NCBI GenBank assembly: GCA_921293015.1
Contig: OV121091.1
Location: forward strand, 7,841,755-7,905,754
Reading direction: 5' to 3'
Source: Phorcus lineatus
Taxonomy: Eukaryota; Mollusca; Gastropoda; Trochida; Trochidae
Length of the DNA stretch: 64,000 bases
In this document: piece after piece, positions 6,186 to 64,000 of the stretch
Layout of the letters: every line of letters starts with the position of its first letter
Position numbering within the stretch: position 1 is the first letter of the stretch
Notes under the pieces: model-generated
What the model was told of the DNA's origin: nothing
The model's database searches: none
What the model saw: only the letters and a program-made list of their open reading frames with translations
Made by a program: the position numbers and the translations under genes

Positions 6186-9100
6186 CTGCGAGTAGAAATC
6201 AAATCATTTTGATAATGTCTATTAGATATCAAATCATTGAAGAAGGATTTTTATCATGGTTTTAATAACACATAGCCACAAGGACAACCATTGATACATG
6301 CTTTCTAATATAGTTAATTATTCTAAGTAAAATCTATGTAATCTATAAAACTTGACTCAATTCAGACTCTGTAAATTTCTTTGCAAGTGGCATTCAATTG
6401 TAGCGCATTTGTATTCGTAACACATAACCAGTTATAATTAACTTTGTTATCAATACAATGTCTTTGTATGAACGAGTGCGCGCCAGGTACTGTACCGGAT
6501 GTTCCGTTAGTGAGAGAGCAGACCTCATGGCTGCTGATTGTACTTGACTGTCATGTAATATTGAACAAGCAACAATACACAAATCCTCAGGAACGTAACA
6601 GTGTTTGTTATTATGCCCAGGCTGACTGCCACACTGGACGAAGTCTACATGAGTTGGTTAATGTCTACAGTTTGCCGCTTTTCAATGTTTATGTGGACAC
6701 ACCCAAACTAGAGCCATTGACTCTCTAGATCATCAGGCTAGATAATGTACAATTTACAATCCCGACAGGCCTGTATCTGTAATCAAGATTTGAACTTGCT
6801 AGCGTCAGTGGCTGTTGAGAAGCATCAGGCTTGATGAGCTAAAAAATCAACAATTACAATTTAACTTTGGTCCCTTCAGCTCAATAAGAGGAGAGATACA
6901 CAGTTGTAATTAGCAATCAGGACTGGTAGTTTCCCTACACACACTACCTTCCCTTGACCCCTTGATCATGTGACCAAAAGTTGTTTTCAAACAAGTGTTT
7001 GCCACTAACATGGCAATGTCCCCCGCAGTTATGAGATATTTGGTATAATTAATATTATAAATCTTTAGATATCTGAGTCTTCCTTCATTGAAGGCTGTCA
7101 CCAAATATGAACACTCTAGGTGCTAAGCTTTACGAGATATCGCTTTTTAACAATGTATTACAAAGAGGTCAAAGTGTCCTGGTGACCTTGAAAATGAGGT
7201 CAAGGTCCCTAATGTCGACTGGCATCTGAGTCTTTCTCCATTGAAGGCTTTCACCAAATATGAACACTCTAGGTGCTAAGCTTTACGAGATATTATTAAA
7301 ATCTAAATATTTTAGATATTTAAAAATGCTTACCCCACTTCTGGGATATAAGAAGTGGGGTCAGTATAAAAAATTTATAAAAATCTAATTCTACCATGAA
7401 AGTGCTGGATACTCGATTCTGATTGGCTGTTTTCTCCGATTCACAGGGTATCAATTCACGATTGAAGTCGTTTTGTTACTTGAAATCTGTTTTCAATGTA
7501 TTAACTGGTAACTTCAGAGTCGATATTCCGCTTGCAAGTGGGATTAAAGTCATAGTCTCATTTTTGCAAGGCAAATTGTAATAAATGCCGGAAAAATAGT
7601 TCACCACTCACAGAAATCTTTCCCCTGACGTTTGCAACAATTTTCAGAACTCTCCAGGAATTCTAGCCCTCAATAATGAAGTTCAAACTACCCTACCCTA
7701 CCCGAATATTGTGTTTTTTGCGAGCATTAGTCCTTACCACGTCATTTCGCTAAAACCGTGACGAAGAACACATAAAATTTCCCAGCTGAATATCCAATGA
7801 AAATAGCTAATAGCTTATGCTTTTTCAAATATAGAAATAACAAAAAGGTGGTAAACTCAGTGAAGAATGCGTCTGTCATAAGTATCGGCGCTGCGATGAC
7901 TAGATTTCCGGTGTTTCGTACTCGCGATGGGATTGCACTTGATTCGGTGCCTCATCAGTCTGAAACGGCATATGCCAATAAGCTGCTTTATCCAAAACTG
8001 TTAAACGGGCATAAAAGTGAAAATCTTTGAAAATGCGACAGGAAATATTTGTGTTAGCGATCAGATTTTGTTCGTGAACAATATTTAGTTCAGTTTAGTT
8101 GCCTTACAAAAATGAGACTATGAATTTAATCTCTTTCTAAAAGGAATTAACCGTTATTGTGTTCGTGTGTTTACACAGAGAGAGCAAATTTTTTTAATTT
8201 TATGTCATATTTTTTACAAAATAAGAAGTTTGAGTGAAAAATCATCGTAAACTAAGCTTTCCGCTACTGGGCATGCAACATCATTTCTTCGAATGCGGCA
8301 ACAAAACAATGACGTTATTTCACGAGTGCTTCTGACATCATAAACTCTATTACGACGTCATAGTGGTCTTCTCTTAGAGTCATCTACACTACACCCAGAA
8401 ACAAACTACCCCCTTTCTAGAAATTTCTAGAACGTATCTAGAACGTATCTAGAAAATTTCTAGAACGGATCTAGAAACTTTCTAGAAACTTTCTAGAACG
8501 TATCTAGAAACTTTCTAGAAATTTCGAGTTTTTATTTTTTTAGAGATATTCAAATAATTTAGATTTGGTCTGAAACTGTATGTCATCTTTTGCACAATTT
8601 GAAAAGATGAACTACTTATGTTAATTAGGAAAGAAGATATTCAATGTTAAAGTTTCCCTCCTCTACAACGCATCCTCATTATAACGCTCCCTGCTAGCGG
8701 AATGCTACGCATTGCTTACGCGCTTCCGGCTCCCTCTAATGACCTGTTACGCATCTTGTCTTGCATTAAGAATTGGATGTATTGGCATATGCAATGTGTT
8801 TGACAATTTCTATGGTTGTAATTGATTGTTGATTGCTCATTGTTTATTTCATATCTTGATATTAAATTGAGATAGTAAACCCTGCTGATAATATTGATCG
8901 TTAGCTTATGTCAACAACTTAAGTCAGCGTACAGCTTTGCCTTCAAACGTAGAATCAGAAATGAAAAGAAGTAAATTTGATATAATCAATTTAATGTTGT
9001 AATGTAAATTATTAGTTTTATAAAGCGTCTTATTCTTCGATGTTATTACTCTTCTTTATATATGTGCTAAATGTTCAATGCGTTGCACTATAGGAGCTGG

Positions 9101-12100
9101 TGCCTACAAATCAATCAGTATTCTTCTGATCATAAATAGCAGGATGTTTATATACAATTTAAGCATTTTGTAATAGCTGTGATCGAATCACAACGAATTT
9201 TCTATTTCATATCCCTATTGTTCAGCAACTCGGTATACTTCTAAAATGCATAAACGGGATCAACTTGTTTCTTTAGTCCCATCCTTGACATATTTGTCTG
9301 CCTGTATTTGGAAATCACTCTTATCAAACCAGCTGAGCATATAGTCCATGAGAGTAGTGTGCCCTATTGGTGTCACAAATACACATTTTGGAATGATTAC
9401 CTTGTTTACACAAATATGCGACCATTTGAAAATTGTCTACGGAATATAAGTTCCCTGTCCAACATTTTACATGTTCCATGTATGAAAATACGCGTACGAC
9501 TCTCAACATTTTCCACCCTTGGAGATCTTAATTGAGGAGTGCACACATGGTATGGAGATCACGGTTATGTTCTAAAGACACTCAGTCATACGCGCTATGA
9601 AAATGTGATGTCGTTACGCAGATTTTCCTTTCTTGCGTACCAAGCCATCTTAGAATATATGCCAAAGGAATTAGCAAATAACGTTTCTTCTCTCAGTTCG
9701 TGATATTCAATCTGTAAACTTAACATTAGTGCAAAGAATAACCAAAAACGTTATGAAACAAATGGGTGAATGAGACACACACAAAAAAACAAATAAAAAC
9801 ATTTTTGTCGGTTTAATTTAGGACATATTTGAAATAAATATGCAAACAAAAAATACCCTCGTCTTTTCAAAGACTTGGATATTATAATTGAATTGTTTGT
9901 AGGGGGGTTGACTATGCAAATAACCTCTGCTTGCTCTTAAGAAAATGAAAAGATTGTAAGAGTTAGTTCCCTGTCTCTAAATGAAAATATGAAGGCAACG
10001 TTTACACGTACATAATGACATATCGGAATGTTGAGAAAAAAGTGTTTTCTAGGTGTAAGCAATCATGCGCTTTTGACGTTTAATTCAATCATGAAAGTAT
10101 TCGCAGTTTTAACTAAGCAATTAGTTAGTCTTAAGCTTTTCATTTCCCTCGCCGTCATCTTTGTTTATAGTGTGCGCGCTTACTACATGTACGACTACAA
10201 TGCCTTTGGCGTGACACTAGTATACTCGATCTTTTTACAGATTGTTGAAACGACTTTACTTATTTGTTCAATTTATCGGCTTAATTGGGGTTGACGAAAT
10301 TACAAACAAATTATGTGTATGCCTTTCTTGGATAATCTTAGGAAGTATTTTTTAATTTGTGGAAGATGAACTTACGCGTCGTATTATTTGACAACATAAT
10401 TCAAAGAGCCATGCCGCTGTCCACTCACACAGTGAGTAGAGCTTCACAGTAATTCTCCAAGGTGTGTGTTTATATACTGAGTAGTAAAACACTGTGACAA
10501 CATATTCAAGATTCGATCAAAATAATGTTAAATAGTTTCATCCTCCATGGTATGGTTTAAAGGTTTAAATATATTTTTATTCCAGAAGTGTGTTTGCTTC
10601 ATAAACTTTTTCTTGAGAAACGATATATCAGATTTTCTCTATGCTGTACATTTTTGTTAGTAATACTGAGCAGTAACGGATTGCTATTTTTATTTGCCAT
10701 TGATACATGAGAAACGGACATATAAATGTTAGGACGTCAAAATTCTGCATACATTTTACATGTGTACTGGTTAAAAGTCCTAAATAATCCTGCCAATCAA
10801 TATTTACATTTGTGCTTGATGTAAAGAGGTTTTAAAAATTACGTTTGAGTCATTGACGCGCATCACTGTTCGGTTTTCTTTGTCACTTTACTGAACTCAT
10901 AAGCACTAAGATCCTAATTTTTTTAAACAACCATCTTGATAAAATAACATGTTGAGCCGTGAAGATAGTCCAGTATTTAATGAGTTTTGACAAATAGTTC
11001 AGTAAGTTTAACATGACGCCCGCAATCAGTCTGAAATGTAATCTTAATAACCGATTGTATATTATATATATATATTTGTATTTGTACTCTTATACCACCA
11101 TTGGTGGTCTTTGGAGAATAAAGAAGTTGAAGTTGAAGAAGTTGAAGTTGCTAATACATATAAATATAACCTTTGTTGCTCACGGGGGCTTTGTGATTTT
11201 CACAGTAAATTGAATCAATTTTAAAGAAAACCTATTTAATTACCATCTGACATTGATAACAGGTACCCATTTAATAACCATTTCCTAATTGATTTTGATG
11301 TTTTCAACTATAGTGGTATTTTATGTCCATGTGTTTAAAGATACATATCAATTTGTATCATAATTTAGTAAGAACTCAGTCATAATGACATGTACGCAAT
11401 GTTATGTTATTCACATATTTTTGTATGCATTTAATTATGTAAGAAAACAACATAGATATAATCCAATTACTGTCGATGGTTTCAACGTATTGATAGGAAC
11501 AAAGTAGAAATGACATTCCTTTTCCCCTTACGATTTCATTTAGAAAAATGGATTCAGATGTATAACCGCTTTACTGGTAACGTCGGTGTTAGAAATCTAC
11601 ATTTGAATATGACATGTTTTGTAAGTTTTCAAACAGTCATTTTAAAGTGACACAGAGTATGCATTGTGATTTTTCATATTACACAGATAATAGCTCAAAG
11701 ACCATGGGTCCCTAGTGAGGTTCTAATCGTCTCCCTAAACATGTTTTCCTGTTTTAAATTTGGAAACGGCCATGTATGTTTAAAAGTTAAAACTTTTTGG
11801 TCACATTTACATGTTCATTACTCAACACTTATCAAACACTACAAACCCATATTTCTATGTTTGTCTGCTGTAATTAAGTTTCCAAAATAACGTTTTGCTC
11901 AATGTCGCACGCCATTGTCCGTTTTTTTTATCACACATTACGACTGAAAATTGCTTATTGTCGCTATACTTAACTGTTAAAAATCGGGATGCTGAATTTC
12001 ATAAAACACCACTACTTATCGATGAAAATAACATCATTTATAAAGTTTGACATATTTGACTCCAACAACATTTTTGTGCCCCTTTAACCAAAAAAAGAAA

Positions 12101-54100: not shown

Positions 54101-57100
54101 CATATTTTGTTTACCGAGAAACGATTTTTTTTCAACTGCTTTTTACACTTCCTATCCATTTAACGGCAGAGCGCATTATCATCTTTTTTATATCACAATA
54201 AAGAGGAAAGGATCGTCTTCAATTCTATATAAAATTTGCAAATTACAATTAGACAATAAAGGAGCGGTTAGTGATGTCGCAATTATCAAAATCTGTTCTA
54301 AAATACCCGAGGGTACCATCTTTGCAAACTTTATATATTCCAAACCAAGTGGTACATATTTGTTATTTACATATCATCGTAAAGCAGAAATAAATACCTT
54401 CATTTTCATGTGAAATTTGCCCATATTTGCATCAAAATAAAACGTGTGGAAACGATGCGACATATGTTGCGGTAAGGCGATTATCAAAGACTTTATTACT
54501 AGCTATACCCACGTTTCGTTGGTAATAACTTCTAATTACAGTGCAAAAGATTGTTATGATTTATTTCTTCGTAAAGAAGAATAAATTGCCTTCAATTCCA
54601 TATATAATTTGCATGTATACAAAGCGAATAACATGATTTATAAAGTTGGAAATAAAGACAATTTATATTGTGTGTGAGTGTATGTTTCAACGGGGATATC
54701 CCGCCTGCACGCGCTGAGCGCGTGCATTTGCCCGGGGCTATTAGCTTAGTAATATTACTGTGGGGTCAGAACGTTATCGGGATTTATCATTACCCTGTTT
54801 TCGTAATTCATATCTTTCGTTTAGGATGGCGTATCGTAATAAAATTTATCGTGAAATATAGAGCAAGAAATTAGCTTCAATTCAGTATATAATTTGCATG
54901 TGTGCACTCAGTGATTAAATGATTTTATAATGTTTGAAATGAAGAAAAATTTTTAAATTTAGTAAAATTCGTTCCAGACATATTATAAAAATAATTTTTA
55001 TATCGATGTGAAGAGGAACAATTCATCTTTAGTTTCGTTTTGATTTCGCGCATGCGCTCTTCGAATTTATTGAGTTATGGCGCCCGAATTGAAAACAAGT
55101 TTACTTCAGTTGTAGAAACCGTTCCAGGGGTGATAGAAATTTCATTCAAAGTGTCAAGTAAGTATCATCCATTTGTAACACGGGATTCGCCGACTAGCTT
55201 TGTATAAAACGACGATATCGTCCGTATTCCGCCATGTAAACACGCCATATGTTGTTAAAACGGTCGCATCTGGCGGCGCTGGAAAATTCGGCCACAGGGG
55301 CTAATTGCGTTATTACCGTAGCGAGGCAAGTGCTGGAAAATTCAGCCACGGGGGCAAAACTGGTCAAAATAATATTCAGCAACGGAAGGGTTAAGATCTA
55401 TGATCTAGGTAGTGCAGCACAAAGACGGTAGAATTTGAGTGAGATTGGCAGAAAAGACTGAGTGCATACTTCTCTGTTGTCCCTCACATGACACATGCTG
55501 AATTTTTATGGAAAGCGTATCTCATTTAAGGTTCTCCCACATTCCCTTTAGATTAATATTTACAAAAATAAACAACGTTGCACCTTATCCTTTCCACAAA
55601 GTGTCCAAAGTTGTCGACTGTAGTGATGTTATAGTTAAATACCTCGAACTCCACATCTGGGTTGATTTCTCTGAAAGCCAAATAACAGTAACATCTAAAA
55701 TATGCAAAGAAATATGAAAGGGCTTAGTAGCTCATTGGGTTAACTATGAGTTCATTTTATAAATGGTCAAAGGGTCACAATATGAGCTGCCACAGGATCA
55801 CCAAATCCATTAACTGAAATCCTCATCTCTGTACACAGAAATTAAGGTATTTAGGCCTTTTGCTTCTAGAGCCAGAGATGAAAATAAGTTTTTTAGGGTG
55901 TGGTCCCAATCAGCTCAGGAGTCTGTACACAATGTTTCAATTTTCTAGGCCGCTGCTTCTGAAGAAGATGATAAAAGGTTTCAAGGGCATTGCCCTTTTT
56001 GCCTTTATTAGGGGTCACAGGTTCACTAAATCCATAAATAAGATTCCCAATCAATTAAGGAGTCTATACACAAGGTTTCCACTTTCTAGGCCTTTACTTC
56101 TGGAGAAGCAGATGAAAATAGGTTTTAGGGGCATTGCTCCTAGGGCTCTTATTAAGTGTGACAGGTTCACCAAATCTATAAATTAGAATCCCAATCAGCT
56201 AAAAAGTCTGTAATATAAGGTTTCAGTTTTCTAGGTCTCTTGGTTCTCCCTGTGCCCTTATCACATACCTGTGGCTATGCTTGCCGTGTTCCTCTGATGC
56301 TAAGAAGTGTAATACTAATCACATACCTGTGGCTATGCTTGCCATGTTCCTCTGATGCTAAGAAGTGTAATACTTATCACATACCTGTGGCTATGCTTGC
56401 CGTGTTCCTCTGATGCTAAGAAGTGTAATACTTATCACATACCTGTGGCTATGCATGCCGTGTTCCTCTGATGCTAAGAAGTGTAATACTTTCATCCCTT
56501 AGGCTATGCTTGCCGTGTTCCTCTGATGCTAAGAAGTGTAATACTTATCACAACCTGTGGCTATGCTTGCCATGCTCCTCTGATGCTAAGAAGTGTAATA
56601 CTTTCATACCTGTGGCTATGCTTGCCGTGTTCCTCTGATGCTAAGAAGTGTAATACTTTCATCCCTGTGACTATGCTTGCCATGTTCCTCTGATGCTAAG
56701 AAGTGTAATACTTATCACATACCTGTGGCTATGCATGCCGTGTTCCTCTGATGCTAAGAAGTGTAATACTTATCACAACCTGTGGCTATGCTTGCCATGC
56801 TCCTCTGATGCTAAGAAGTGTAATACTTTCATACCTGTGGCTATGCTTGCCGTGTTCCTCTGATGCTAAGAAGTGTAATACTTTCATCCCTGTGACTATG
56901 CTTGCCATGTTCCTCTGATGCTAAGAAGTGTAATACTTATCACATACCTGTCGCTATGCTTGCCGTGTTCCTCTGATGCTAAGAAGTGTAATACTTATCA
57001 CATAGGGCAAACTGACCGAGGTTCGGACACCACTCGAGGTCGCCCGAACTTCGGACACTTTTGATTAGTAGCTGACGCAATAATACCTGCAATGTCAGCA

Positions 57101-60100
57101 ATATATTTGTTTTGAAATATGAATTTCTAGTATGTAGATTTATTCATTTCATTAAATAGACAATTGATTGTAGGTAGTATATCTAATCGACCTTTTGCTA
57201 TGATGTACAAATAAAAGATCCATGTAAGGAATTGGCAAAATATTTGTTTCAACGTAAATGTTGACTATCAGGTTAGGAAATATAGGAAGCGCCAAAACAT
57301 TTTAAATTGTATCCATAAATAAAGATAAACAACCAAACAGTTAAATTGTGCTGAATATTGGTATATATAAAAGGGATTTTAAAGTAAATGTTGAGATATT
57401 GATAATATGTCAAAATGACCTTGCTTCGGACAGTTTTGACCATGGTTCGGACACTTTTTATATTTCCTTTGTACGGACTTGTAATGCTGTAATTCAACCA
57501 ACAAAAGTTCTGGAAACATGCAATAACATATTCCTAACATATTTCACAAATTAATACATTTTTAAAACCTACAGTTTAGCGAGTACGGCGTTTTGGCGTC
57601 AAATGCCTAAGAAACTGATTGTGACGTCATAAGTTTGTAACGACGCATGCGGCAATTTAGGGAGAATTTAACATCGGGAAGCATTCTCTGTACAGATGAC
57701 AAATTAATTCATGTTTCCGAAAAACCTTGATATTATTGTACATGAACTACTCAATGCGTGTTTTGGAATGTCTGAGACCATTTTGATAAATATTTTAAGC
57801 TAAGGGTGCATGCGAGAAGATCATGTGCAGCTGTCCGAAGTTAGGTCAGAACTGTCCGAACCTCGGGCGATTTCATATTGGCAATAAAAACCGTTATTTT
57901 CGGATATTTTACGAACAATTATGCATTTTAAGATAGAAATCTAAAATAAATATTACTTTATGATAATTTGGTTTACTTATATTTACATTATTCAAAATAT
58001 CTTTTATAATGCAGAGTTTCAAAACATTTGAATGGATACACTGTCCGAACCTCGGTCAGTTTGCCCTACCTGTTGCTATGCTCACCTTATTCTTCTCATT
58101 CTAAGAAGTGTAATAATTATCAGAAACCTGTGGCTATGCTCGCTTTGTTCTTCTGATGCCCTGAAGTGTAATATATTCTACCAAAAAAAATTAGGGTGTA
58201 CCCCTCTCCACACCTCGATCCCTTCCTACCACTCTCCACTCCCTTCCTACCATTCTCCACAACTCCCTTCCTACCAGTCTCCACTCCCTTCCTACCAGTC
58301 TCCACACCTCCCTTCCTACCAGTCTCCACACCTCCCTTCCTACCATTCTCCACACCTCCCTTCCTACCAGTCTCCACACCTCCCTTCCTACCCCTCTCCA
58401 CACCTCGATCCCTTCCTACCACTCTCCACTTCCTTCCTACCATTCTCCACAACTCCCTTCCTACCAGTCTCCACACCTCCCTTCCTACCCCTCTCCACAC
58501 CTCCCTTCCTATCAGTCTCCACTCCCTTCCTACCACTCTTCACTTCCTTCCTACCCCTCTCCACACCTCCCTTCCTACCAGTCTCCACACCTCCCTTCCT
58601 ACCAGTCTCCGCTCCCTTCCTACCAGTCTCCACACCTCCCTTCCTACCAGTCTCCACTCCCTTCCTACCAGTCTCCACTCCCTTCCTACCAGTCTCCACA
58701 CCTCCCTTCCTACCAGTCTCCACACCTCCCTTCCTACCAGTCTCCACACCTCCCTTCCTACCCCTCTCCACACCTCCCTTCCTACCAGTCTCCACTCCCT
58801 TCCTACCACTCTTCACTTCCTTCCTACCCCTCTCCATACCTCCCTTCCTACCAGTCTCCACACCTCCTTTCCTACCCCTCTCCACACCTTCCTTCCTACC
58901 ACTCTCCACTCCCTTCCTACCACTCTTCACTTCCTTCCTACCCCTCTCCACACCTCCCTTCCTACCCCTCTCCACACCTTCCTTCCTACCACTCTCCACT
59001 CCCTTCCTACCACTCTTCACTTCCTTCCTACCCCTCTCCATACCTCCCTTCCTACCAGTCTCCACACCTCCCTTCCTACCCCTCTCCACACCTTCCTTCC
59101 TACCACTCTCCACTCCCTTCCTACCACTCTTCACTTCCTTCCTATCCCTCTCCACACCTCCCTTCCTACCAGTCTCCACTCCCTTCCTACCACTCTTCAC
59201 TTCCTTCCTACCCCTCTCCATACCTCCCTTCCTACCAGTCTCCACACCTCCCTTCCTACCCCTCTCCACACCTCCCTTCCTACCACTCTCCACTCCCTTC
59301 CTACCACTCTTCACTTCCTTCCTACCCCTCTCCACACCTCCCTTCCTACCCCTCTCCACACCTCCCTTCCTACCCCTCTCCACACCTTCCTTCCTACCAC
59401 TCTCCACTCCCTTCCTACCACTCTTCACTTCCTTCCTACCCCTCTCCATACCTCCCTTCCTACCAGTCTCCACACCTCCCTTCCTACCCCTCTCCACACC
59501 TTCCTTCCTACCACTCTCCACTCCCTTCCTACCACTCTTCACTTCCTTCCTATCCCTCTCCACACCTCCCTTCCTACCAGTCTCCACACCTCCCTTCCTA
59601 CCCCTCTCCACACCTCCCTTCCTACCAGTCTCCACTCCCTTCCTACCACTCTTCACTTCCTTCCTACCCCTCTCCATACCTCCCTTCCTACCAGTCTCCA
59701 CACCTCCCTTCCTACCCCTCTCCACACCTCCCTTCCTACCACTCTCCACTCCCTTCCTACCACTCTTCACTTCCTTCCTACCCCTCTCCACACCTCCCTT
59801 CCTACCCCTCTCCACACCTCCCTTCCTACCAGTCTCCACACCTCCCTTCCTACCCCTCTCCATACCTCCCTTCCTACCCCTCTCCACTCCCTTCCTACCA
59901 GTCTCCACACCTCCCTTCCTACCAGTCTCCACTCCCTTCCTACCAGTCTCCACACCTCCCTTCCTACCAGTCTCCACTCCCTTCCTACCAGTCTCCACTC
60001 CCTTCCTACCAGTCTCCACTCCCTTCCTACCAGTCTCCACACCTCCCTTCCTACCAGTCTCCACTCCCTTCCTACCAGTCTCCACACCTCCCTTCCTACC

Positions 60101-60751
60101 AGTCTCCACACCTCCCTTCCTACCCCTCTCCACACCTTCCTTCCTACCACTCTCCACTCCCTTCCTACCACTCTTCACTTCCTTCCTACCCCTCTCCACA
60201 CCTCCCTTCCTATCACTCTCCACACCTCCCTTCCTACCCCTCTCCATACCTCCCTTCCTACCCCTCTCCACTCCCTTCCTACCAGTCTCCACAACTCCCT
60301 TCCTACCACTCTTCACTCCCTTCCTACCACTCTTCACTTCCTTCCTACCACTCTCCACTCCCTTCCTATCACTCTCCACACCTCCCTTCTGACCACTCTC
60401 CATACCTCCCTTCCTACCCCTCTCCACTCCCTTCCTACCAGTCTCCACAACTCCCTTCCTACCACTCTTCACTCCCTTCCTACCATTCTTCACTTCCTTC
60501 CTACCACTCTCCACTCCCTTCCTATCACTCTCCACACCTCCCTTCTGACCACTCTCCACACCTCCCTTCAACCTCTCCCCCTCAAGCCACCACCTCCCCC
60601 TGTTCTTCTTTCACTGCCTCCCTTCAGTCCAACTTTCCTACCTCAGCGTTCTTTCAGCCGCCTGTACCTTGCTCATTCCTGCCTGGTGTGGTTGGTAGAA
60701 GAGACGGTTCATATTTGCCAGCTCCACTTTGTCATAGTCGAACAGAAGCAG
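6110..60751 (-). CDS. UBA5: UBA5, UFM1-activating E1 enzyme, seven internal exons
   Basis: UBA5 adenylates UFM1 with ATP, holds it as a thioester and passes it to the E2 UFC1, starting UFMylation (ER homeostasis, ribosome quality control). Seven minus-strand exons join in phase and encode about 242 residues, from [18 protein letters not shown] to EEVIHEDDF, near-identical in order to the vertebrate protein (about 404 residues). They contain the metal/ATP-site aspartate in [10 protein letters not shown], the catalytic cysteine in [11 protein letters not shown], and four zinc cysteines (CFA-C and PQCDDNNC). Introns are about 5.0 kb, 22.8 kb, 138 bp, 8.8 kb, 209 bp and 16.9 kb; the long ones are packed with transposons. 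N-terminal exons (Rossmann GxGGVGS loop) should lie above 64000 and the C-terminal UFC1-binding exons below 6110. No frame damage is seen in any exon, so the gene is judged functional. The family call is very secure. Confidence 0.97.
6186..6989. other. UBA5 intron, mostly unrecognised
   Basis: No supported gene. A segment at about 6805-6895 (GCTTGATGAGCTAAAAA then CAGCTCAATAAGAG) resembles 32305-32390, so it belongs to a short dispersed repeat. Small open frames here have no recognisable features. Confidence 0.4.
6990..7295 (+). repeat. Dispersed GGTCAAGGTC-type intergenic repeat
   Basis: Two tandem units of about 140-160 bp carry GTGACCTTGAAAATGAGGTC, CATCTGAGTCTT and CACCAAATATGAACACTCTA. 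The same text returns at 18405-18550. This kind of repeat (GGTCA words followed by a conserved 'tatgaacactctaggtgc' block) is common in bivalve genomes. Confidence 0.7.
7296..7390. repeat. Short hairpin repeat (CTTACCCCACTTCT stem)
   Basis: The stem is CTTACCCCACTTCT and AGAAGTGGGGT with a short loop (about 7329-7365), flanked by AT-rich arms (AAAATCTAAATATTTTAGAT). Two more hairpins of the same kind occur at 18245-18410. It looks like a very short MITE or a sub-terminal module of a larger repeat. Confidence 0.65.
7391..8385 (+). repeat. Dispersed repeat B, first half
   Basis: Begins CTACCATGAAAGTGCTGGAT and shares long blocks with the reverse complement of 46900-47365 (for example AAACTAAGCTTTCCGCTACTG and GTGTTTACACAGAGAGAG). 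It contains an open frame of 77 codons (7797-8030) that the other copy does not keep, so that frame is unlikely to be coding. The boundary with the next repeat is at about 8385, where the two copies diverge. Confidence 0.65.
8386..9040 (+). repeat. Repeat D carrying a heat-shock-element array, copy 1
   Basis: Starts CACTACACCCAGAAACAAAC, then the TCTAGAAA array, then about 500 bp of sequence closely matching 62349-62803 (for example ATTATAACGCTCCCTGCTAG and TGTCAACAACTTAAGTCAGC). The similarity ends near TTTAATGTTGTAATGTAAATT. Non-coding. Transposon class unknown. Confidence 0.7.
8414..8527. promoter_or_regulatory. Heat-shock-element-like array
   Basis: About ten TCTAGAA half-palindromes. 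Positions 415-417, 420-422, 425-427 and 430-432 of this kilobase (8415-8432) form four alternating TTC/GAA units at exact 5-bp spacing, the ideal HSF1 site; several two- and three-unit sites follow. Sequence match only; binding is inferred. Confidence 0.6.
9041..11035. other. UBA5 intron, nothing recognised
   Basis: AT-rich non-coding DNA. An 88-codon frame at 10028-10294 reads as hydrophobic residues but has no family motif and no splice context, so I do not call it. No terminal repeats seen. Confidence 0.4.
11040..11155 (+). repeat. LINE 3' end with GTTGAA tail
   Basis: ACCACCATTGGTGGTCTTTGG forms the short hairpin common at CR1/L2-type 3' ends, followed by AATAAAG and repeats of GTTGAA (about 11122-11152). 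These are the 3' recognition end and microsatellite tail of a 5'-truncated CR1-like LINE. Confidence 0.6.
11156..12632. other. UBA5 intron, nothing recognised
   Basis: Low-complexity AT-rich sequence with no supported genes or repeats. The last about 200 bp may belong to the LINE fragment that follows, but no RT motif can be read there. Confidence 0.4.
12633..13330 (+). pseudogene. CR1/L2-like LINE ORF2, C-terminal fragment
   Basis: One frame from 12633 reads [18 protein letters not shown] then [20 protein letters not shown], the region after the RT of CR1/L2-type LINEs. It matches the same region of the intact LINE in this window ([24 protein letters not shown]). A shift to another frame near 13048 gives [21 protein letters not shown], the histidine/cysteine part of the terminal zinc-like motif, with a stop at about 13278. 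The copy is 5'-truncated and has at least one frameshift. A short 3' UTR follows, without a clear tail. Confidence 0.75.
13331..14118. other. UBA5 intron with a small inverted repeat
   Basis: Mostly unrecognised. GGGATCGTATAGACA (13929-13943) and its inverse (14038-14052) make a 15-bp stem around a GC-rich loop with CTCGTCTCGCTC. It is not a tRNA. No supported coding sequence. Confidence 0.4.
14123..15542 (+). mobile_element. TTAA-family (piggyBac-like) non-autonomous element, complete copy
   Basis: Flanked by TTAA at 14119-14122 and 15543-15546. The left end is CCCTTCCGTTGCTGAATATT and the right end is the inverse of CCCTTAAGATGCGGGTCCCG; CCCTT is the shared terminal repeat. Between them lie an AT-rich array of diverged units of about 150-200 bp (markers: GCGCATGTACAAATTTTACA, GAATTGAAGACAAT, CTCTTTATTGTGATATAAAA) and a GC-rich terminal segment (about 15080-15542). 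It has no transposase. The ends match the piggyBac at 24067-29953, which probably mobilised it. Confidence 0.88.
15547..17220. other. UBA5 intron, nothing recognised
   Basis: AT-rich non-coding DNA without clear genes, terminal repeats or matches to the families named here. A short SINE-like motif (AAGCGCTATATAA) ends it at 17200-17215. Confidence 0.4.
17221..17840 (-). repeat. Repeat D carrying a heat-shock-element array, copy 2 (diverged)
   Basis: In reverse, this copy starts TACAGTACACCAATAAATAA, then ACCCCG and the TCTAGAAA array, then diverged sequence weakly like the interior of copies 1 and 3 (a TTATAACG-like block and CGCACTTCCTTTATTAG). A TATTTATAG motif lies about 180 bp beyond the array on the minus strand. 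More diverged than copies 1 and 3. Confidence 0.5.
17697..17810. promoter_or_regulatory. Heat-shock-element-like array, five perfect units
   Basis: GAA at 17698, TTC at 17703, GAA at 17708, TTC at 17713 and GAA at 17718: five alternating units at exact 5-bp spacing, followed by further TTCTAGAA and TTTCTAG units to 17810. This is the strongest HSF-type site in the window by sequence. Confidence 0.65.
17841..18244 (+). repeat. Dispersed repeat B, second half, with terminal inverted duplication
   Basis: Positions 17850-18180 match the reverse complement of 46565-46890 (for example TTTACATTTGTACTACATAC and ACAAAACCATTTTGTG). The last part is inverted on itself: 18109-18156 and 18197-18244 are near-perfect 48-bp inverse copies (start GAGATAAAC) around a 40-bp loop. 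The second arm is not present in the 46-kb copy, so it is a local inverted duplication. Confidence 0.65.
18245..18410. repeat. Two CTTACCCCACT hairpins in tandem
   Basis: Stems at about 18269-18308 and 18353-18391, with GGTATAAG and TATATCCC loops, each flanked by AAATATTTTAGATATTTAAAAA. Same module as 7296-7390. Confidence 0.65.
18407..19290 (+). repeat. Dispersed GGTCA-type repeat, several decayed units
   Basis: 18407-18550 closely matches 7150-7290. Then comes a GTACGGACAGACGG stretch and TCCCCCGTTCCACTAGGGGG, a typical end of such bivalve intergenic repeats. Units at about 18890-19260 keep only the skeleton (GGTTCA, GTGACTTTGAAAATAGAGGTC). No genes. Confidence 0.6.
19440..21676 (-). pseudogene. 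L1-like LINE remnant: endonuclease plus C-terminus, RT missing
   Basis: 20936-21676 keeps an open APE endonuclease: [18 protein letters not shown], a catalytic-type LQDIH, GDWNLV near residue 158, and KTDHSAI at the end. The frame runs on through [11 protein letters not shown] and VEQDDKVKL, is interrupted by a MITE at TTAA, and resumes as [11 protein letters not shown]. It then jumps to C-terminal text: ENPFWKDV, then [20 protein letters not shown] and a stop at about 19446. The whole RT domain between LETLSF and the tail is deleted. Stops appear in the last part. The endonuclease's D/N and SDH-type residues are present (the H motif reads TDH). Confidence 0.85.
19773..20753. mobile_element. 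TTAA MITE with 13-bp perfect TIRs, inserted in the LINE
   Basis: 981 bp flanked by TTAA (19769-19772 and 20754-20757). The ends are AGGGGAAGGTAAA and its perfect inverse. Removing the element and one TTAA restores a continuous LINE frame (VKL-KISDSLF), which proves both edges. No coding sequence. Its ends differ from the CCCTT family, so it belongs to another TTAA-targeting lineage. Confidence 0.9.
21677..23101. other. LINE 5' flank and UBA5 intron
   Basis: Directly upstream of the LINE endonuclease. It has loosely repeated words (TTCTGAAAATATCC, TTGAAGCGTTCT at 22040-22450). A 64-67 codon minus-strand frame at 22680-22883 ([16 protein letters not shown]) could be part of a LINE ORF1, but I recognise no domain. 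Confidence 0.35.
23102..23237 (-). CDS. UBA5: UBA5 exon: end of adenylation domain with zinc pair
   Basis: Acceptor TTTTCAAG|G at 23238, donor CAG|GTGAGA at 23101. It reads [20 protein letters not shown], then [20 protein letters not shown]. The cysteines of PQCDDNNC are the second zinc pair of UBA5. Phase 1 at the start completes the lysine codon begun in the previous exon. Confidence 0.97.
23447..23574 (-). CDS. UBA5: UBA5 exon: catalytic cysteine
   Basis: Acceptor CTCTTAG at 23575, donor CTCAA|GTAAGT at 23446. It reads [20 protein letters not shown], then [20 protein letters not shown]. The cysteine in [11 protein letters not shown] is the active site that forms the thioester with UFM1 (Cys250 in human UBA5). 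The first codon is a zinc cysteine; the CxxC motif is split by the intron. Confidence 0.98.
23575..23970. other. UBA5 intron start, nothing recognised
   Basis: About 400 bp of AT-rich intron between the exon and the nested MITE/piggyBac pair. No repeats or open frames of note. Confidence 0.4.
24300..25620 (+). repeat. Left internal array of the piggyBac element
   Basis: Diverged units of roughly 150-190 bp. Each carries a TTGCGCA/CTGCACATG word, then AAATTATACATGGAATTAAA and GACAAT, a CTCTTTA..GATG block and a GAGATATGAA..GCGAAAG block. The same unit order and orientation is found in the right flank and in the transposase-less copies. Confidence 0.7.
25850..27672 (-). pseudogene. piggyBac transposase, nearly full length, damaged
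   Basis: A DDE/DDD transposase of the piggyBac family (DDE_Tnp_1_7). From ATG at 27672 it has an acidic N-terminus, then [17 protein letters not shown] (residues 101-117), [15 protein letters not shown], and catalytic aspartates in [13 protein letters not shown] (D249) and [10 protein letters not shown] (D328). An in-frame TGA at 26437-26439 separates the third, in [14 protein letters not shown] (about residue 435). The C-terminal cysteine-rich domain is still readable at 25860-26090 (SRMCVVCS and [19 protein letters not shown]) but in different frames. At 27410-27530 another frame reads [20 protein letters not shown], more protein-like than the open frame, hinting at a compensating indel pair. 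Not functional as it stands. The frame is open upstream of the chosen ATG to about 27770. Confidence 0.93.
28560..29480 (+). repeat. Right internal array of the piggyBac element
   Basis: Units start near 28588, 28738, 28853, 29039, 29242 and 29418 (spacing about 115-205 bp), each with a GCGCAT..TACA word, a GAATTGAAGACAAT-like word and a CTCTTTA block. The last two units match the array of the 14-15 kb copy most closely (TGAGCACATC..TTGGTGTGACAAAA). Confidence 0.7.
30287..31332 (+). mobile_element. TA element with TTCGGACA sub-terminal motifs, copy 1
   Basis: 1046 bp flanked by TA (30285-30286, 31333-31334). Left end GGGCAAACTGCCTGAGGTTC; right end is the inverse of GGGCAAACTGACTGAGGTGC. Inside are repeated TTCGGACA/TGTCCGAA words near 30310, 30490, 30515, 30895 and 31280. 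TA duplication and size suggest a Tc1/mariner-superfamily MITE. Non-coding. Confidence 0.85.
31335..32406. other. UBA5 intron, nothing recognised
   Basis: AT-rich, no genes. 32305-32390 shares the GATGAGCTAAAAATCA block with 6805-6895. Confidence 0.4.
32407..32511 (-). CDS. UBA5: UBA5 exon: crossover region, first zinc cysteine
   Basis: Acceptor ATGTTGCAG at 32512, donor GCA|GTAAGT at 32406. Reads [20 protein letters not shown], then [15 protein letters not shown], almost identical to vertebrate UBA5. The cysteine in SCFA pairs with the first codon of the next exon (CxxC zinc pair). Exactly 35 codons, phase 0 at both ends. Confidence 0.98.
32650..32734 (-). CDS. UBA5: UBA5 exon: ATP/metal-site aspartate
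   Basis: Acceptor GTCCCACAG-like (CCACAG) at 32735, donor ACT|GTGAGT at 32649. Reads [20 protein letters not shown] then EARMAINT. The aspartate in [10 protein letters not shown] is the conserved metal/ATP residue of E1 enzymes. Only 138 bp of intron separate it from the next exon, the shortest intron here. Confidence 0.98.
33343..33420. repeat. Inverted repeat around GAATACTAAAC
   Basis: The arms ATACTAAACTTCCTTCCATT and AATGGAAGGTCGTTTAGTAT flank a short AT loop. Near-perfect stem of about 30 bp. Likely a small foldback or MITE. Confidence 0.6.
34052..34198. repeat. 147-bp palindrome, 40-bp perfect arms
   Basis: Arms 34067-34106 and 34143-34182 are perfect inverses (start ATGTTTTGGGATGGTAAATA). 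The stem extends outward through GTTATCAT/ATGATAAC and inward to a CTCGCCAAGGCTCG centre. Similar layout to the palindrome at 61724-61886, whose centre is CCTCGGCAAGCCTCGG. Confidence 0.75.
35077..36360 (+). mobile_element. TTAA-family non-autonomous element, truncated copy
   Basis: Preceded by TTAA (35073-35076) and starts CCCTTACAATGTGG. Most of the GC-rich terminal segment is deleted, then it follows the copy at 52996-55390 through the internal array to ATGTTGTTAAAAC near 36360. The far end (ending GGAAGGG) is missing. Confidence 0.75.
36380..37772 (-). mobile_element. LTR-type retroelement fossil: Gag end and aspartic protease
   Basis: Minus-strand pieces of a Gag-Pol polyprotein. 37512-37772 resembles the end of Gag ([20 protein letters not shown]). 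36960-37460 is a retroviral-type aspartic protease with the DTA triad in [11 protein letters not shown] and a [17 protein letters not shown] block. Family within the LTR elements not resolved. No LTRs seen. It is an old, broken and partial copy. Confidence 0.7.
37832..38320 (+). pseudogene. MULE (FLYWCH-type) transposase, internally deleted
   Basis: 38021-38160 reads [20 protein letters not shown] and [16 protein letters not shown], the segment just before the catalytic domain of FLYWCH/MULE transposases. From 38166 another frame reads [20 protein letters not shown] then [21 protein letters not shown], the conserved C-terminus. The whole DDE catalytic domain (several hundred residues) is missing between them. 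Just upstream, 37832-37891 reads [14 protein letters not shown] before a GTAAGG, and TTTCAG precedes 38007, so an intron may once have been present, although the phase as I read it does not fit exactly. Confidence 0.75.
38854..39400. mobile_element. hAT-type MITE inserted in the gypsy fossil
   Basis: 547 bp flanked by GAAACTATT (38845-38853 and 39401-39409; 8-9 bp). The right end, read inward, is TAGTGGTGTAACGATAG, a typical hAT terminus; the left end matches it only weakly. The interior has TATCCCGAT/ATCGGGATA words in both orientations. Confidence 0.7.
42345..42874 (+). repeat. 3' LTR of the gypsy fossil
   Basis: Starts TGTTATGATAAC right after a purine tract (AAATGGGGGCG, 42334-42344) and ends CCCACTCGTAACA, so the ends are TGTTA...TAACA. 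A TATA-type promoter word (AGTATAAAAACC) lies near 42576. No second copy is in the window, so its age cannot be estimated from LTR divergence. Confidence 0.8.
42880..43690 (+). pseudogene. L1-like LINE ORF2, C-terminal fragment
   Basis: Begins right after the LTR. Frames from 42838 and 43082 read [20 protein letters not shown] and [15 protein letters not shown], then [20 protein letters not shown], then from 43432 [20 protein letters not shown]. This is the post-RT region of L1/Tx1-type LINEs, ending in the H..C..C motif. At least two frameshifts. Relative of the minus-strand copy at 19440-21676 (ENPFWKDV...PLWLNHN). The LTR element may have inserted into it. Confidence 0.8.
43985..44050 (+). 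repeat. Half copy of the 45437 palindrome
   Basis: AAGGATTGTTTTACATTTTT through GTATAACATCGCG is one arm of the palindrome at 45437-45581. Just before it is GTAAACATCTACACTGCATG, which follows the palindrome's other arm at 45584, so the two loci share flanking sequence as well. Confidence 0.7.
44055..44350 (+). mobile_element. Ty3/gypsy fossil fragment: RNase H region
   Basis: Short, broken plus-strand piece with [19 protein letters not shown], the RNase H start of gypsy-type Pol, and a [11 protein letters not shown]-like end. It lies outside the 3' LTR of the larger fossil, so it is a separate or displaced fragment. Old. Confidence 0.7.
44397..44918 (-). pseudogene. Penelope-like retroelement fragment (post-RT linker)
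   Basis: A 173-codon open frame. Its middle reads [14 protein letters not shown], then [20 protein letters not shown] and NCKSRNVV, which fits the RT-to-GIY-YIG linker of Penelope-like elements (usual forms RNLKDLLV, C..CKTC.HI, T..Y.I, C.S.NVVY). The RT and the GIY-YIG endonuclease are not present. The first about 60 residues are not recognised and may come from flanking DNA. Confidence 0.6.
44919..45436. other. Intron, nothing recognised
   Basis: Contains a TGACGTCACAAT word (44934) like those near 33230 and 61620, and otherwise unassigned AT-rich DNA. Confidence 0.4.
45437..45581. repeat. 145-bp near-perfect palindrome
   Basis: Arms 45437-45503 and 45517-45581 (start AAGGATTGTTTTAC) differ only by a 2-base slip; the 13-bp loop is a CTACG repeat. 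Such long stems can extrude as cruciforms. A single arm is found at 43985-44050. Ends TAAGGATT/AATCCTTA recall the small AAGGATTCAGC hairpins at 63769-63858. Confidence 0.85.
45740..45893 (+). mobile_element. TTAA-family fragment (CCCTTCCGTTGC-end side)
   Basis: GTTAAAACAATCGCATCTGG through GCTGGAAAATTCAG and AAAATAATATTCAGCAA matches 55252-55383, the last 130 bp of the full copy. The terminal GGAAGGG-TTAA is lost. Confidence 0.75.
45894..46564. other. Intron, nothing recognised
   Basis: AT-rich sequence with loosely repeated AACTTCTTAA/GTTACA words (46130-46330). No genes or terminal repeats. Confidence 0.4.
46565..47365 (-). repeat. Dispersed repeat B, longest copy
   Basis: Read in reverse it runs from ACCATGAAAATGCTGGATAC through AAACTAAGCTTTCCGCTACTG to CGCTATCAAT. 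Its first half matches 7391-8385 and its second half matches 17850-18180, so it shows that those two pieces belong to one family. It lacks the heat-shock-element array, which marks repeat D as a separate unit. Non-coding. Confidence 0.65.
47366..48037. other. Intron, nothing recognised
   Basis: Unassigned AT-rich DNA up to the target duplication of the full-length LINE. Confidence 0.4.
48120..51614 (-). CDS. LINE ORF2: APE endonuclease and reverse transcriptase
   Basis: 1164 residues, intact. It nicks target DNA and copies the element's RNA there. Endonuclease (residues 13-285): [14 protein letters not shown] (catalytic E47), MGDINARTG (D168, N170) and ESDHLPL (D279, H280). Reverse transcriptase (about 520-810): [40 protein letters not shown] (motif A, D665), [17 protein letters not shown] and [10 protein letters not shown] (D769, D770). 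The C-terminal region ends with [19 protein letters not shown], a CCHC-like motif of CR1/L2-type LINEs. No RNase H. All key residues are present. It starts 18 bp after the ORF1 stop, in the same frame, suggesting coupled translation. Confidence 0.95.
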   Translation of the reverse strand: MIPNGDSNSTEHNLTFMSWNVCGLYHKLFDNDFINFCAKYCLFGFVEVWNNCSKCDIEKTFIDCKVFTNYRKFNNRGGVALCINHAFVSGVKKIYLEFVDCIFVLMDKIVLGTSRDILFGVIYIHPINSSLKSDTRTEKGIDYLETCVTEIMCDETISNDVMIVIMGDINARTGNLQDVIIDDNSRHIPSLEDMPYIADSFQIPRNSKDDTVNRYGIDLIELCTTLGLHILNGRSESDPQGDFTCYVGDGASLVDYCLCSSPIFDLDIDLEVVSRCESDHLPLKLTVKTHYVNSHTVIESQVNELTRYRWNRQKAVTYSSQVSMRLNDYTIQQFKDDIANDIDDAVETLTSLMTSSASECKMEIRTYRDRSHHSEKWYDKECSQLKDSKYEALNTFRATGTHASFCEFRHLRNCYRQKCREKKRSHDQQQINDLITSTNNSKAFWNKLKNMNKKQEVKPIISTDDWSAYFGKFLNLTDVEIDQDNLRFCEQFVNNHKELYCATCEEDDMNNILNINFTEEEVLSALNHLKDGKAAGLDGILPEMIKVCQNVLLKYITELFNSIFQSGVYPKSWSTGLIKPLHKKGNVNDVNNYRGIALMDVFGKLFTYILNCRLQYFCEVFKELPESQAGFRAGYATTDNIFTLQGLAQKYLSKRNGRFYCLFVDFRKAFDGINRNLLWYVIMQKNIHGKFLNILQAIYSKVRAAVKISNTSITNFFDTNTGVRQGCPLSPLLFSLFIVEFEEMIQQAQLRGTFVGQEFFDILMLLYADDLCLFDDSVIGLQRKIDLLQKFCIKWGLEVNLDKTEIIVFRRGGIIKQVEKWKFGHEKINTATYYNYLGLLFSSRLSWSKAVNTLTIKASKALFSIKTLQQRLTNISPQLLFKLFDTQIKPILLYGSEIWGFGRRPKIEQFHVNFCKFTLGVGRHVSSAAALGDCGRHDIAVDYHSRSIKFWLKLITMPRHRYPKQVYIHLKTLDDQNRRTWATEIRELLFMYGFGTVWLHQEVGDVNNFLNVFKQRLKDCNLQYWHTQITESKKLQSYQYVKSLLNIETYLSALNKREHRRLLFLLRSSELPLRINTGRWEGLPYEERICQFCDTYSIEDEYHFCLVCPVYHTLRTIYLPNQCLVNINISVYHQLLSCTNNTILYHLAQYVKQALRKRKTILDV
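51633..52622 (-). CDS. LINE ORF1: coiled-coil RNA-binding protein with 2A-like leader
   Basis: 329 residues. ORF1 proteins of this type bind the element's RNA and form the transport particle. A leader (1-68) ends in AGVEQNPGP (residues 61-69), a 2A-like ribosome-skipping motif preceded by a hydrophobic run ([12 protein letters not shown]). A coiled coil follows at about 100-175 ([20 protein letters not shown]), then an L1-type RRM ([13 protein letters not shown] at about 180) and a C-terminal domain ([20 protein letters not shown]). Two starts are possible: Met1 (52622) and Met44 (52493); both have A at -3. Starting at Met44 would give a 25-residue leader, the arrangement known in sea urchin 2A-bearing elements. 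The stop (TGA followed by C) is in frame with ORF2. Confidence 0.92.
   Translation of the reverse strand: MGVSPVQFRVSIGTFAPVHIKILTRISDHYKNSRIPRFNAGLNMSTRLVTLNLVLMLLLRAGVEQNPGPGDEDCVKTRGQISAKGAEKQLTLSKSSSDKSIQAVLDIVRTLSTKFDTLQTSSKNMDDKLTSIDTKLTHMHDQLNDVNDKCERLEQENKYLKEKMDILEEKVDHLENVSRRNNLIFSGIPKSNSAETWSDCEKSVRSVLKENLELDESSINIQRAHRIMNGKAIIVKLTDEKDKQNILKSANKLKGTTIYINEDFSATVRQKRKKLLSLMFESREAGRKCYLRYDKLFVDGNIYTYDVTKDSLVVIKEGQTQSLTQDSLN
52416..52493 (-). other. 2A-like ribosome-skipping leader of LINE ORF1
   Basis: Residues 44-69 of ORF1: [16 protein letters not shown] followed by [14 protein letters not shown] at 52416-52427. The consensus is D(V/I)ExNPGP; here the Asp is replaced by Gly, or lost. 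2A motifs at this place are known in trypanosome L1Tc and in several marine-invertebrate LINEs, where the hydrophobic leader can also act as a secretion signal. Activity of this variant is unknown. Confidence 0.75.
52996..55390 (-). mobile_element. TTAA-family non-autonomous element, complete long copy
   Basis: 2395 bp flanked by TTAA (52992-52995, 55391-55394). Begins CCCTTAAGATGCGGGTCCCG and ends AATATTCAGCAACGGAAGGG, opposite in orientation to the 14-kb copy. GC-rich terminal segment at 52996-53470, then the array of diverged units, then a CTGGAAAATTCAGCCAC..GGGGC terminal part. No transposase. It is the least decayed of the non-autonomous copies and the best reference for the family. Confidence 0.9.
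55584..55670 (-). CDS. UBA5: UBA5 exon: NPDV..NYNITTV region
   Basis: Acceptor GCTTTCAG at 55671, donor ATAAG|GTGCAA at 55583. Reads [20 protein letters not shown], then FGHFVERI. Phase 1 in, phase 2 out, completing the arginine before it and the serine after it. Matches vertebrate [20 protein letters not shown]. The downstream intron (22.8 kb) holds the full-length LINE and the 53-55 kb element. Confidence 0.98.
55730..56250 (+). repeat. About 145-bp tandem repeat, three to four decayed units
   Basis: Units share AATCAGCT..AGGAGTCTGTACACAA, TTTTCTAGGCC, CTTCTGGAGAAG..GATGAAAATA and a CACAGGTTCACTAAATC block. A single decayed relative is at 34270-34500. A 108-codon open frame across it is a by-product of the repeat. 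Confidence 0.65.
56255..58170 (+). repeat. 58-bp tandem array, split by a TA element
   Basis: About 13 units with CTGTGGCTATGCTTGCCGTG, TTCCTCTGATGCTAAGAAGT and GTAATACTTATCACATAC up to 57004, then two diverged units from 58067 to 58170. Unit variants (ATGCATGCC, TTTCATCCCTGTGAC) alternate, suggesting duplication of several units at once. The second TA element sits inside it at a TA. Confidence 0.9.
57005..58066 (-). mobile_element. TA element with TTCGGACA sub-terminal motifs, copy 2
   Basis: 1062 bp, flanked by TA (57003-57004, 58067-58068). The terminal inverted repeats (at least 24 bp, starting GGGCAAACTGACCGAGGTTC) are perfect. TTCGGACA or its inverse recurs near 57025, 57055, 57425, 57450, 57828, 57855 and 58042. 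It is inverted relative to copy 1. The flanks rejoin to a normal tandem unit (CACA-TA-CCTG), confirming the edges. Confidence 0.92.
58197..60572 (+). repeat. 2.4-kb pyrimidine-rich minisatellite next to a UBA5 exon
   Basis: About 100 units of 21 or 24 bp built on CCCTTCCTACCAGTCTCCAC, with variants in the middle triplet (CCAGTC, CCACTC, CCCCTC). Units are grouped in higher-order blocks of roughly 100-190 bp (the series CACCTTCC, CACTCTCCACTCCC, CACTCTTCACTTCC recurs from 58870 to 60180). Because the units are multiples of 3, frames of 700-900 codons stay open on both strands; these have no start context or conservation and are not genes. It ends 70 bp from the UBA5 donor at 60641, and the UBA5 transcript carries the G-rich strand. 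Confidence 0.93.
60642..60751 (-). CDS. UBA5: UBA5 exon: nucleotide-binding region
   Basis: Acceptor TTGATTGCAG at 60752, donor CTGAG|GTAGGA at 60641. Reads [20 protein letters not shown] then [16 protein letters not shown] plus two bases. [15 protein letters not shown] is the conserved Rossmann-fold segment of UBA5 whose acidic residues contact the ATP ribose. Phase 0 at its start. The preceding exon should end at CGIGK and was not found up to position 64000. Confidence 0.98.
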
Positions 60752-61723
60752 CTGCAATCAAGCATGATCAAATATCACATTTTTGGTATCGTATTTCTAT
60801 TTATTATCTTTATGGTTGATAATAAGCCAGTTAATATTTTCAATACGAGCACATGTGCACATATCACTTTTGGCGTAGATGATTGGTTGAAATATGACCT
60901 TGACCTCTGTGTACGAGACGAAGGACTACTTTCTCCATTCATAATTTTTAACTACGTAGCGTAAACTTCATTCAAGTTTTCAATCACGATGAGACGAGAT
61001 TACAAGTCGGGAGTCATAACAACAATAAACGCATTCTATACTCATTAATTGTCACTAAATAAACCAACGTCAACAAATATGAACTTTATATACGTTATTT
61101 TCCAATTTTCCTTAAAACATTTTAGTTGTAAAATTTCCACAAGTTTACGTAGCAGCTGGCCGACAATATGGCGATGTTTTCACCTGTAAAAATTTTTTTT
61201 GAAATAGACGGCAAAGCTTTAAGTAGGGTGATTGACATAACTAAACCACTTGGAAGTTTTAATGTGTTTGTGATTCGTAAGGAAACAGGTACAATCAAAC
61301 AAATTCCTCGTTATCGTTTGAGAGTTTTACTCAACATCACTATCGGGTCCGGTGCTGGTGTGACTGAGTGCATGTCGCCTACATCGCCTCAAGCCAAATA
61401 ACTCAGAATCTAACGTCCCATCGACCTCTCGTCAGATGACGAATAAATTCCTTCGTAAACACTAACGTTTCGTCGTGGAAGATCAAGAGATATCTCCTAG
61501 GAGATATCATTTTGACAGTAGATTTTGAATAATGCTCTATCACAGTCAAGTTCATGACATCACAATTGTTTTACATCATCAAGTAATGACATCACAATGC
61601 TATGACATCATAAACATGATGACGTCACAATGCTATGACATCACTCCACTGAGAGTCTTAGAGTAGTGCAGTGTTCAGAAAAACACATTTTTCACGGAAT
61701 CGAAATGAAAAATGACTTTGAAT
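60752..61723. other. UBA5 intron, nothing secure
   Basis: A 77-codon frame at 61168-61401 (VKIFFEIDGKALSRVIDITK) has some protein-like character but no motif I know and no visible splice partners. ATGACATCACAATG words repeat at 61550-61645. Confidence 0.4.
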
Positions 61724-61886: not shown

Positions 61887-62261
61887 TTTAGCTTAATAGG
61901 CCTAACTCATTCTAGGCTAGCAATCTTGCTTGAACGTCGATCAACACGTTTAAAATGGCCGCGTCACTACTATGCTAACTTTTATCTTTCTACAGTGATA
62001 TAACGGTTTGGCTATTAGTGAAAGCAGTGTCGGTATATTACTTACTAAATGTAAACTAGTAGCATATGGTCATAAACTTCCGTGATTTTCCCCAGTATGT
62101 TTCTCTCTATAGACAGAAACTAGAGACTTAACTTTGCACTATTTCTTGTCACTGACCTCGCCGTTTCGTAAGCTAACTTAATCGTTTTTCAAGGAATTAT
62201 AACAAAACTTAAATGGATAATAAAGAAATTATTACACTCGCAAGTGTGTCATATGATACAC
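61887..62261. other. Intron, nothing recognised
   Basis: Unassigned DNA between the palindrome and repeat D copy 3. Confidence 0.4.
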
Positions 62262-62286
62262 TACGCCCAGAAACAAAGTACCCCCT

Positions 62287-62344
62287 TTCTAGAAATTTCT
62301 AGAAAGTATCTAGAACGTATCTAGAAACTTTCTAGAAATTTCGA
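62287..62344. promoter_or_regulatory. Heat-shock-element-like array
   Basis: TTC at 62287, GAA at 62292, TTC at 62297 and GAA at 62302 are four units at exact 5-bp spacing, followed by two shorter sites to 62344. Shorter than the other two arrays. Confidence 0.55.
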
Positions 62345-63858: not shown

Positions 63859-64000
63859 AAATATATTTGATATAATCAATTTAATGTAATGTAAATTTTA
63901 AAAATTGGTTTGGATTAGGTTTATAAGGTTTAAAGGCACTAGTGCAAGCTTTTACGGTTTAAATTAGCTATTTTAAGGTTTACGAGTACTTATGCATTCA

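Follow-up and report, generated by a model that had tools for sequence, protein, structure and literature searches.

Why should arrays of perfect heat-shock elements (HSEs) lie within the introns of a single gene? The question is raised by a 64,000-nucleotide stretch of the Phorcus lineatus genome (GenBank assembly GCA_921293015.1, contig OV121091.1, positions 7,841,755 to 7,905,754 of the forward strand), referred to here as the window, which contains exons of UBA5. Direct reading of the letters places three arrays at about 8414-8528, 17698-17811 and 62286-62345, designated copies 1, 2 and 3. A preliminary description regarded them as three copies of one repeat ("repeat D"), compared them with nematode Helitrons and proposed that they make UBA5 responsive to heat. 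The answer we lean towards is a different one. The arrays would be the subterminal repeats of a DNA transposon with terminal inverted repeats (TIRs), whose ends resemble those of CACTA elements and whose target-site duplication is TA. A ladder of CTAGAA units would provide putative docking sites, and the HSEs would be by-products.

Heat-shock-type runs in the arrays

The whole window was searched for alternating GAA/TTC units at a 5-bp step and compared with 200 dinucleotide shuffles. The longest perfect alternating runs have 4, 5 and 4 units (8415-8432, 17698-17720 and 62287-62304, respectively), which bears out the unit numbers and the spacing given in the preliminary description. Two further perfect runs have 3 units (8513-8525 and 62330-62342). 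All five runs of at least three units in the window are inside the three arrays; in shuffled windows the mean was 0.905 for runs of 3 and 0.02 for runs of 4. Taking an HSE to be at least three alternating nGAAn units at a 5-bp step, these five runs of 3 to 5 units are HSEs. The pattern GAANNTTCNNGAA is the degenerate HSE pattern given in the methods of a study of Helitrons, minus the outer N; the results text of the same study prints a variant (PMC6927752). It has nine matches in the window, some of them overlapping, and every one is within an array (chance mean 1.03). The perfect HSE runs are real and far above chance.

Copies 1 and 2 as opposite ends of one insertion

Directly inside a TA on either side lies a 27-bp TIR, CACTACACCCAGAAACAAACTACCCCC on the left and, inverted, CAGTACACCAATAAATAAACATACCCC on the right. 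The two are equal at 20 of 27 positions (binomial P 4e-7), and the arrays follow directly inside them. TA adjoins all three visible ends and makes up 8% of the dinucleotides of the window. The flanking DNA belongs to another repeat. In self-comparison of window parts, the left part of this host repeat (8144-8385) aligns with the minus strand at 47154-46914 (83.5%), and the right part (17862-18190) continues the alignment at 46890-46574 (74.6%). When 8387-17837 is removed and the flanks are joined with one TA, the alignment to 46574-47373, a relative of the empty site, is gap-free at the site and has gaps elsewhere. The likeness between copies 1 and 2 extends past the arrays, with a local score of 152 compared to a best of 121 and a mean of 83 among 200 shuffles. 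Given the inverted TIRs, the TA on either flank and the unbroken host repeat, copies 1 and 2 are best read as the opposite, inverted ends of a single insertion of 9,451 bp (Table 1). Three independent copies of repeat D are ruled out, since copies 1 and 2 are inverted and face each other, with the host repeat continuous across them. The earlier claim that the arrays are borne by a transposon is upheld by the TIRs, the TA duplication and the empty-site relative. A TIR-like 12-mer at 16732-16743, with one mismatch, was taken as a chance occurrence.

Self-comparison also revealed that copy 3 matches the left end of the 9,451-bp element up to 62794 and that similarity returns at 63859-63897. Its likeness to the right end also extends past the array, with a local score of 105 (best of 200 shuffles, 94). 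Copy 3 is the left end of a second family member, the other end of which lies past the window edge.

Table 1. Features of the 9,451-bp element, its second family member and the empty-site relative (window positions)
Feature	Position	Strand	Remarks
Left TA of target-site duplication	8385-8386		TA at both flanks
Whole TIR DNA transposon, 9,451 bp, non-autonomous or decayed, inside another repeat	8387-17837		
Left TIR, starts CACTAC	8387-8413	+	20/27 match right end, 25/27 match copy 3
Left subterminal array, 10 CTAGAA units, spacings 1x10 + 8x11 bp	8414-8528	+	HSE runs 8415-8432, 8513-8525
Left inner terminal region, common to copy 3, weaker likeness to right end	8529-8967	+	371/433 aligned bases
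Right subterminal array, 10 CTAG units, spacings 8x11 + 1x10 bp	17698-17811	-	5-unit HSE run 17698-17720
Right TIR, starts CAGTAC, 7 mismatches to left-end consensus	17811-17837	-	20/27 copy 1, 18/27 copy 3
Right TA of target-site duplication	17838-17839		
Host-repeat relative without insertion, empty-site control	46574-47373	-	
TA and left TIR (CACTAC) of second member	62257-62285	+	
Left subterminal array of second member, 5 units	62286-62345	+	HSE runs 62287-62304 (4), 62330-62342 (3)
Inner terminal region of second member	62346-62794	+	

The CTAGAA ladder

The arrays are ladders of CTAG rungs, 10 in copy 1, 10 in copy 2 and 5 in copy 3, giving 25 units. The spacing between units is 11 bp in 19 of 22 cases and 10 bp in the remaining three. 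Each array has a single 10-bp step, outermost in copies 1 and 3 and innermost in copy 2. A continuous HSE register would need 10-bp steps throughout. Most of each array is out of the 5-bp heat-shock register because the ladder has an 11-bp pitch with only one 10-bp step. The preliminary description had the arrays composed of the stretch TTCTAGAAATTTCTAGAA; the arrays exist, but this stretch occurs once in each, and the rest is the 11-bp CTAGAA ladder.

The two half-sites are unequally retained. GAA is intact in 24 of the 25 units and TTC in 12 (Fisher p 2.9e-4); full TTCTAGAA is found in 12/25. The TA between the TTC and GAA halves, which is irrelevant to an HSE, is invariant (25/25). Units shaped by HSF (heat-shock factor) binding would be expected to keep TTC and GAA equally and to leave the two bases between them free. 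The dominant 11-bp pitch and the unequal retention of TTC and GAA therefore favor a directional CTAGAA unit, about one per helical turn, as the conserved feature. The broken register, the decay of TTC and the constancy of a TA with no part in an HSE also tell against the earlier view that the arrays exist as HSEs.

The preliminary description has the array persisting in the most diverged copy. There, in copy 2, the inner end does keep its 5-unit run, but TTC is intact in just one of the five outer units. Between copies 1 and 3, the arrays are identical at 58 of 59 aligned bases (55 gaps), the TIRs at 25 of 27, and the sequence beyond the array at 371 of 433 (24 gaps). Array and beyond-array identity differ (Fisher p 0.003), and only 1 of 1000 arrays simulated at 14.3% divergence was as similar. 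Conserved ends with a drifting interior are expected of ends required in cis for transposition.

Interior of the element and relatives in public DNA

No Pfam family, Transposase_21 (tnp2) included, was found at E 0.5 in the six frames of 8387-17837 or of as much of the copy 3 interior as lies in the window (62345-63999). Ten of the 70 open reading frames (ORFs) of at least 45 aa were scanned singly and gave sub-cutoff matches alone, the best to GNT-I (E 0.0033, 16.7 bits, cutoff 25.4). Rfam gave no match at the gathering score. The 9,451-bp copy is non-autonomous or decayed, or has a transposase that falls outside Pfam. Inside the transposon, a nested repeat family occupies 14119-15546; other copies of differing similarity, including 52992-54289 and 29005-29946, are spread across the UBA5 introns. 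The segment 12612-13058 is a short remnant similar to the C-terminal portion of the long interspersed nuclear element (LINE) in the window (46 aligned residues, E 8e-7, in a single comparison with ORF 48120-51632). On the plus strand, about 180 bp inward of the right array, TATAAATAG at 17512-17520 may be a candidate outward-reading promoter.

Neither the TIR nor either of two array stretches had an exact match in viral contigs. One array stretch had no exact match in genome contigs, among which there is no eukaryotic collection. An 18-base array stretch is present in two viral contigs. The two matches share one sequence, read in opposite directions, in which a pair of TTCTAGAA units stands side by side and another lies close by. 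They were taken as chance because no longer ladder surrounds these units in the 201 bases around each.

Comparison with known element types

Helitrons are not known to have TIRs or a target-site duplication. Since the element has TIRs (20/27) and a TA duplication, a Helitron identity is ruled out, and the analogy drawn in the preliminary description fails on structure. Like the HSE-bearing Helitrons of Caenorhabditis, it is a mobile element with a cluster of NGAANNTTCNNGAAN (PMC6927752). Unlike them, it has TIRs and a TA duplication, its arrays are mostly out of HSE register, and its HSEs are recognized from sequence alone. Tc1/mariner-type elements may contain several sites for transposase binding in their end repeats. 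They share the TA target, but the element described here differs in its 9.45-kb length, its CACTA-like ends and a six-frame Pfam search in which no DDE transposase was found.

In its large size, motif repeats just inside the TIRs and CA..TG termini, the element resembles CACTA (En/Spm) and CMC/CMCT elements. Excision and transposition of CACTA elements involve subterminal repeats, which act in cis and are bound by the protein TNPA; motifs and proteins vary widely among families (PMC2613891). CACTA elements are described as having subterminal repeats and a 3-bp duplication (PMC8978399). Two of the three visible ends, both left TIRs, start with CACTA and the third with CAGTA, and the arrays of 10, 10 and 5 CTAG units are just inside the TIRs. 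Unlike plant CACTA elements with their 3-bp duplication, the element has a 2-bp TA duplication and a right end that starts with CAGTA; the flanks share TA alone (CTA on the left, TAT on the right). It is also unlike three animal CACTA relatives that were compared, which start with CCC and have 2-bp direct repeats (PMC1636069), as the left ends here start with CACTA. Membership in CACTA proper was set aside because neither a 3-bp duplication nor a Transposase_21 domain was found. The CMCT group is described more loosely, with mostly CA..TG termini and target-site duplications of 2-5 bp, and includes a fungal lineage, ESTA, with TA (PMC12730594). The CA...TG ends and TA duplication of the element agree with this looser definition.

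UBA5 and other neighbors

The minus-strand ORF 32341-32763 matches UBA5 structures (E 4e-26). Exons were mapped by tblastn with human UBA5; all are on the minus strand, and they lie at 60641-60754, 55586-55672, ~32653-32736, ~32389-32512, ~23437-23567, 23102-23239 and 6114-6188. The last match is weak alone (E 0.51, 44% identity), yet is in the correct order. The 9.45-kb element is within the 16.9-kb intron between 23102-23239 and this weak match, in agreement with the earlier placement of the arrays in UBA5 introns. For copy 3 that placement is less firm: it lies upstream of 60641-60754, the first of the exons mapped, and is only presumably intronic, because tblastn gave no exon match for residues 1-98 in the window.

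The exon at 60641-60754 adjoins a minisatellite of ~2.35 kb (58219-60569) with the 24-bp unit TCCCTTCCTACCACTCTCCACACC. This minisatellite is strongly strand-biased, with a GC skew of -0.88 at 58001-60000. A second array, at 56257-57004, has a 58-bp unit, and a 225-bp period was called there as well. Other mobile-element sequences are on the minus strand. A 446-aa ORF at 26437-27777 has a DDE_Tnp_1_7 transposase domain (E 1.1e-69), presumably of the piggyBac type. A long open LINE at 48120-52691 has two ORFs, one of 352 aa with EQNPGP, which we take to be a 2A-like motif, and after it one of 1170 aa with a reverse transcriptase domain (RVT_1, E 1.5e-31). A 247-aa ORF at 20936-21679 with Exo_endo_phos (E 2.1e-10) is probably the fragment of another LINE.

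Origin of the arrays

In the reading that we favor, the 11-bp CTAGAA ladder would be bound by a protein of an autonomous family member, either TnpA-like or the transposase itself, and the bound protein would pair the element ends for excision. Perfect HSEs would arise where the ladder takes its 10-bp step. HSF would probably bind these perfect stretches in open chromatin, as a by-product and not as the reason for the arrays. The 11-bp steps (19/22), the retention of GAA over TTC (24/25 vs 12/25) and the invariant TA fit the layout of docking sites. Several points weigh against this reading. One or more perfect 4-5-unit HSEs occur in every one of the three arrays, and their places differ between the two ends, which argues mildly against pure accident. 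In vitro, two contiguous units are reported to suffice for HSF binding, and longer or odd (8-bp, atypical) HSE gaps are mentioned in the same paper (PMC4552642); the 11-bp pitch therefore weakens an HSF reading without ruling HSF out. The protein binding the arrays is hypothetical, since the searches of the element and of the visible part of copy 3 turned up neither a transposase nor a DNA-binding protein. The units were located by CTAG, which makes the invariance of CTAG partly a matter of construction, yet no rung is missing. The alignment underlying the comparison of the copy 1 and copy 3 arrays has 55 gaps, and the likeness of the units could also come from slippage or homogenisation. The empty site is represented by a single relative, about 83% alike in the left flank and 75% in the right, and it reads TT where TA is expected. 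The right TIR is equal to that of copy 3 at just 18 of 27 positions.

The HSEs might instead be working parts of a heat-activated transposon. HSEs at the ends would recruit HSF1 and drive transcription of an autonomous member, or outward transcription, in heat, and jumps under stress would scatter HSEs. We consider this unlikely, but keep it in play because there is an HSE in each array (perfect runs of 4, 5 and 4 units) and because heat promotes movement of CNEST, a fungal element of the CMC supergroup that moves more at 37 than at 30 degrees (PMC12810828). CNEST clusters with an oyster transposase that carries the annotation CACTA; putative HSEs are described in two fungal LTR (long terminal repeat) elements, and none was noted for CNEST (PMC12810828). 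Heat activation is also consistent with the confinement of all nine HSE pattern matches to the arrays, the binding of HSF-1 to the HSEs of Caenorhabditis Helitrons (PMC6927752) and the enrichment of TTCTAGAA close to heat-induced worm genes (PMC4821803). The ability of HSF to bind two contiguous units in vitro (PMC4552642) points the same way, with 12 of the 25 units being full TTCTAGAA. It is opposed by the 11-bp steps, which are outside a continuous register, by the decay of TTC but not of GAA, and by the element having no transposase gene that was found for a promoter to drive. Moreover, the gap- and step-type HSEs that have been described have 5-bp gaps, with longer ones mentioned too (PMC4552642). 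Still less probable is the wider proposal of an animal cut-and-paste TIR family that has HSF-binding arrays at both ends, is mobilised or transcribed through HSF1 in heat, and seeds strong HSEs genome-wide. A literature search covering titles and abstract openings found no animal TIR transposon with HSEs.

It is also doubtful that the arrays grew by slippage within transposon ends as passive minisatellites with no binding function. Such an origin would suit the variable unit number (10, 10 and 5) and the presence of other minisatellites in the window, but the arrays are equally placed at all three ends, directly inside the TIR, with a near-exact 11-bp pitch, and those of copies 1 and 3 differ less than their flanks. 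That the intronic arrays make UBA5 heat-responsive, as first proposed, is very improbable. The arrays are in UBA5 introns (presumably so for copy 3) and have a strong HSE consensus. However, insertion into a repeat that was already there, far inside a 16.9-kb intron, accounts for where they lie, and no analysis made here ties them to a UBA5 promoter. UBA5 was not named as an HSF1 target in the titles and abstract openings searched. A role in a UBA5 heat response is unsupported beyond the motif itself.

Finally, the results replace a claimed regulatory oddity of one gene with a defined transposon that has mapped ends, a target-site duplication and an empty site. The spread of heat-shock sites by transposons beyond the Helitrons of nematodes becomes a simple test on one family. 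The pitch of such arrays, 10 bp versus 11 bp, serves as a discriminator between host HSF sites and look-alike docking sites of a transposase.

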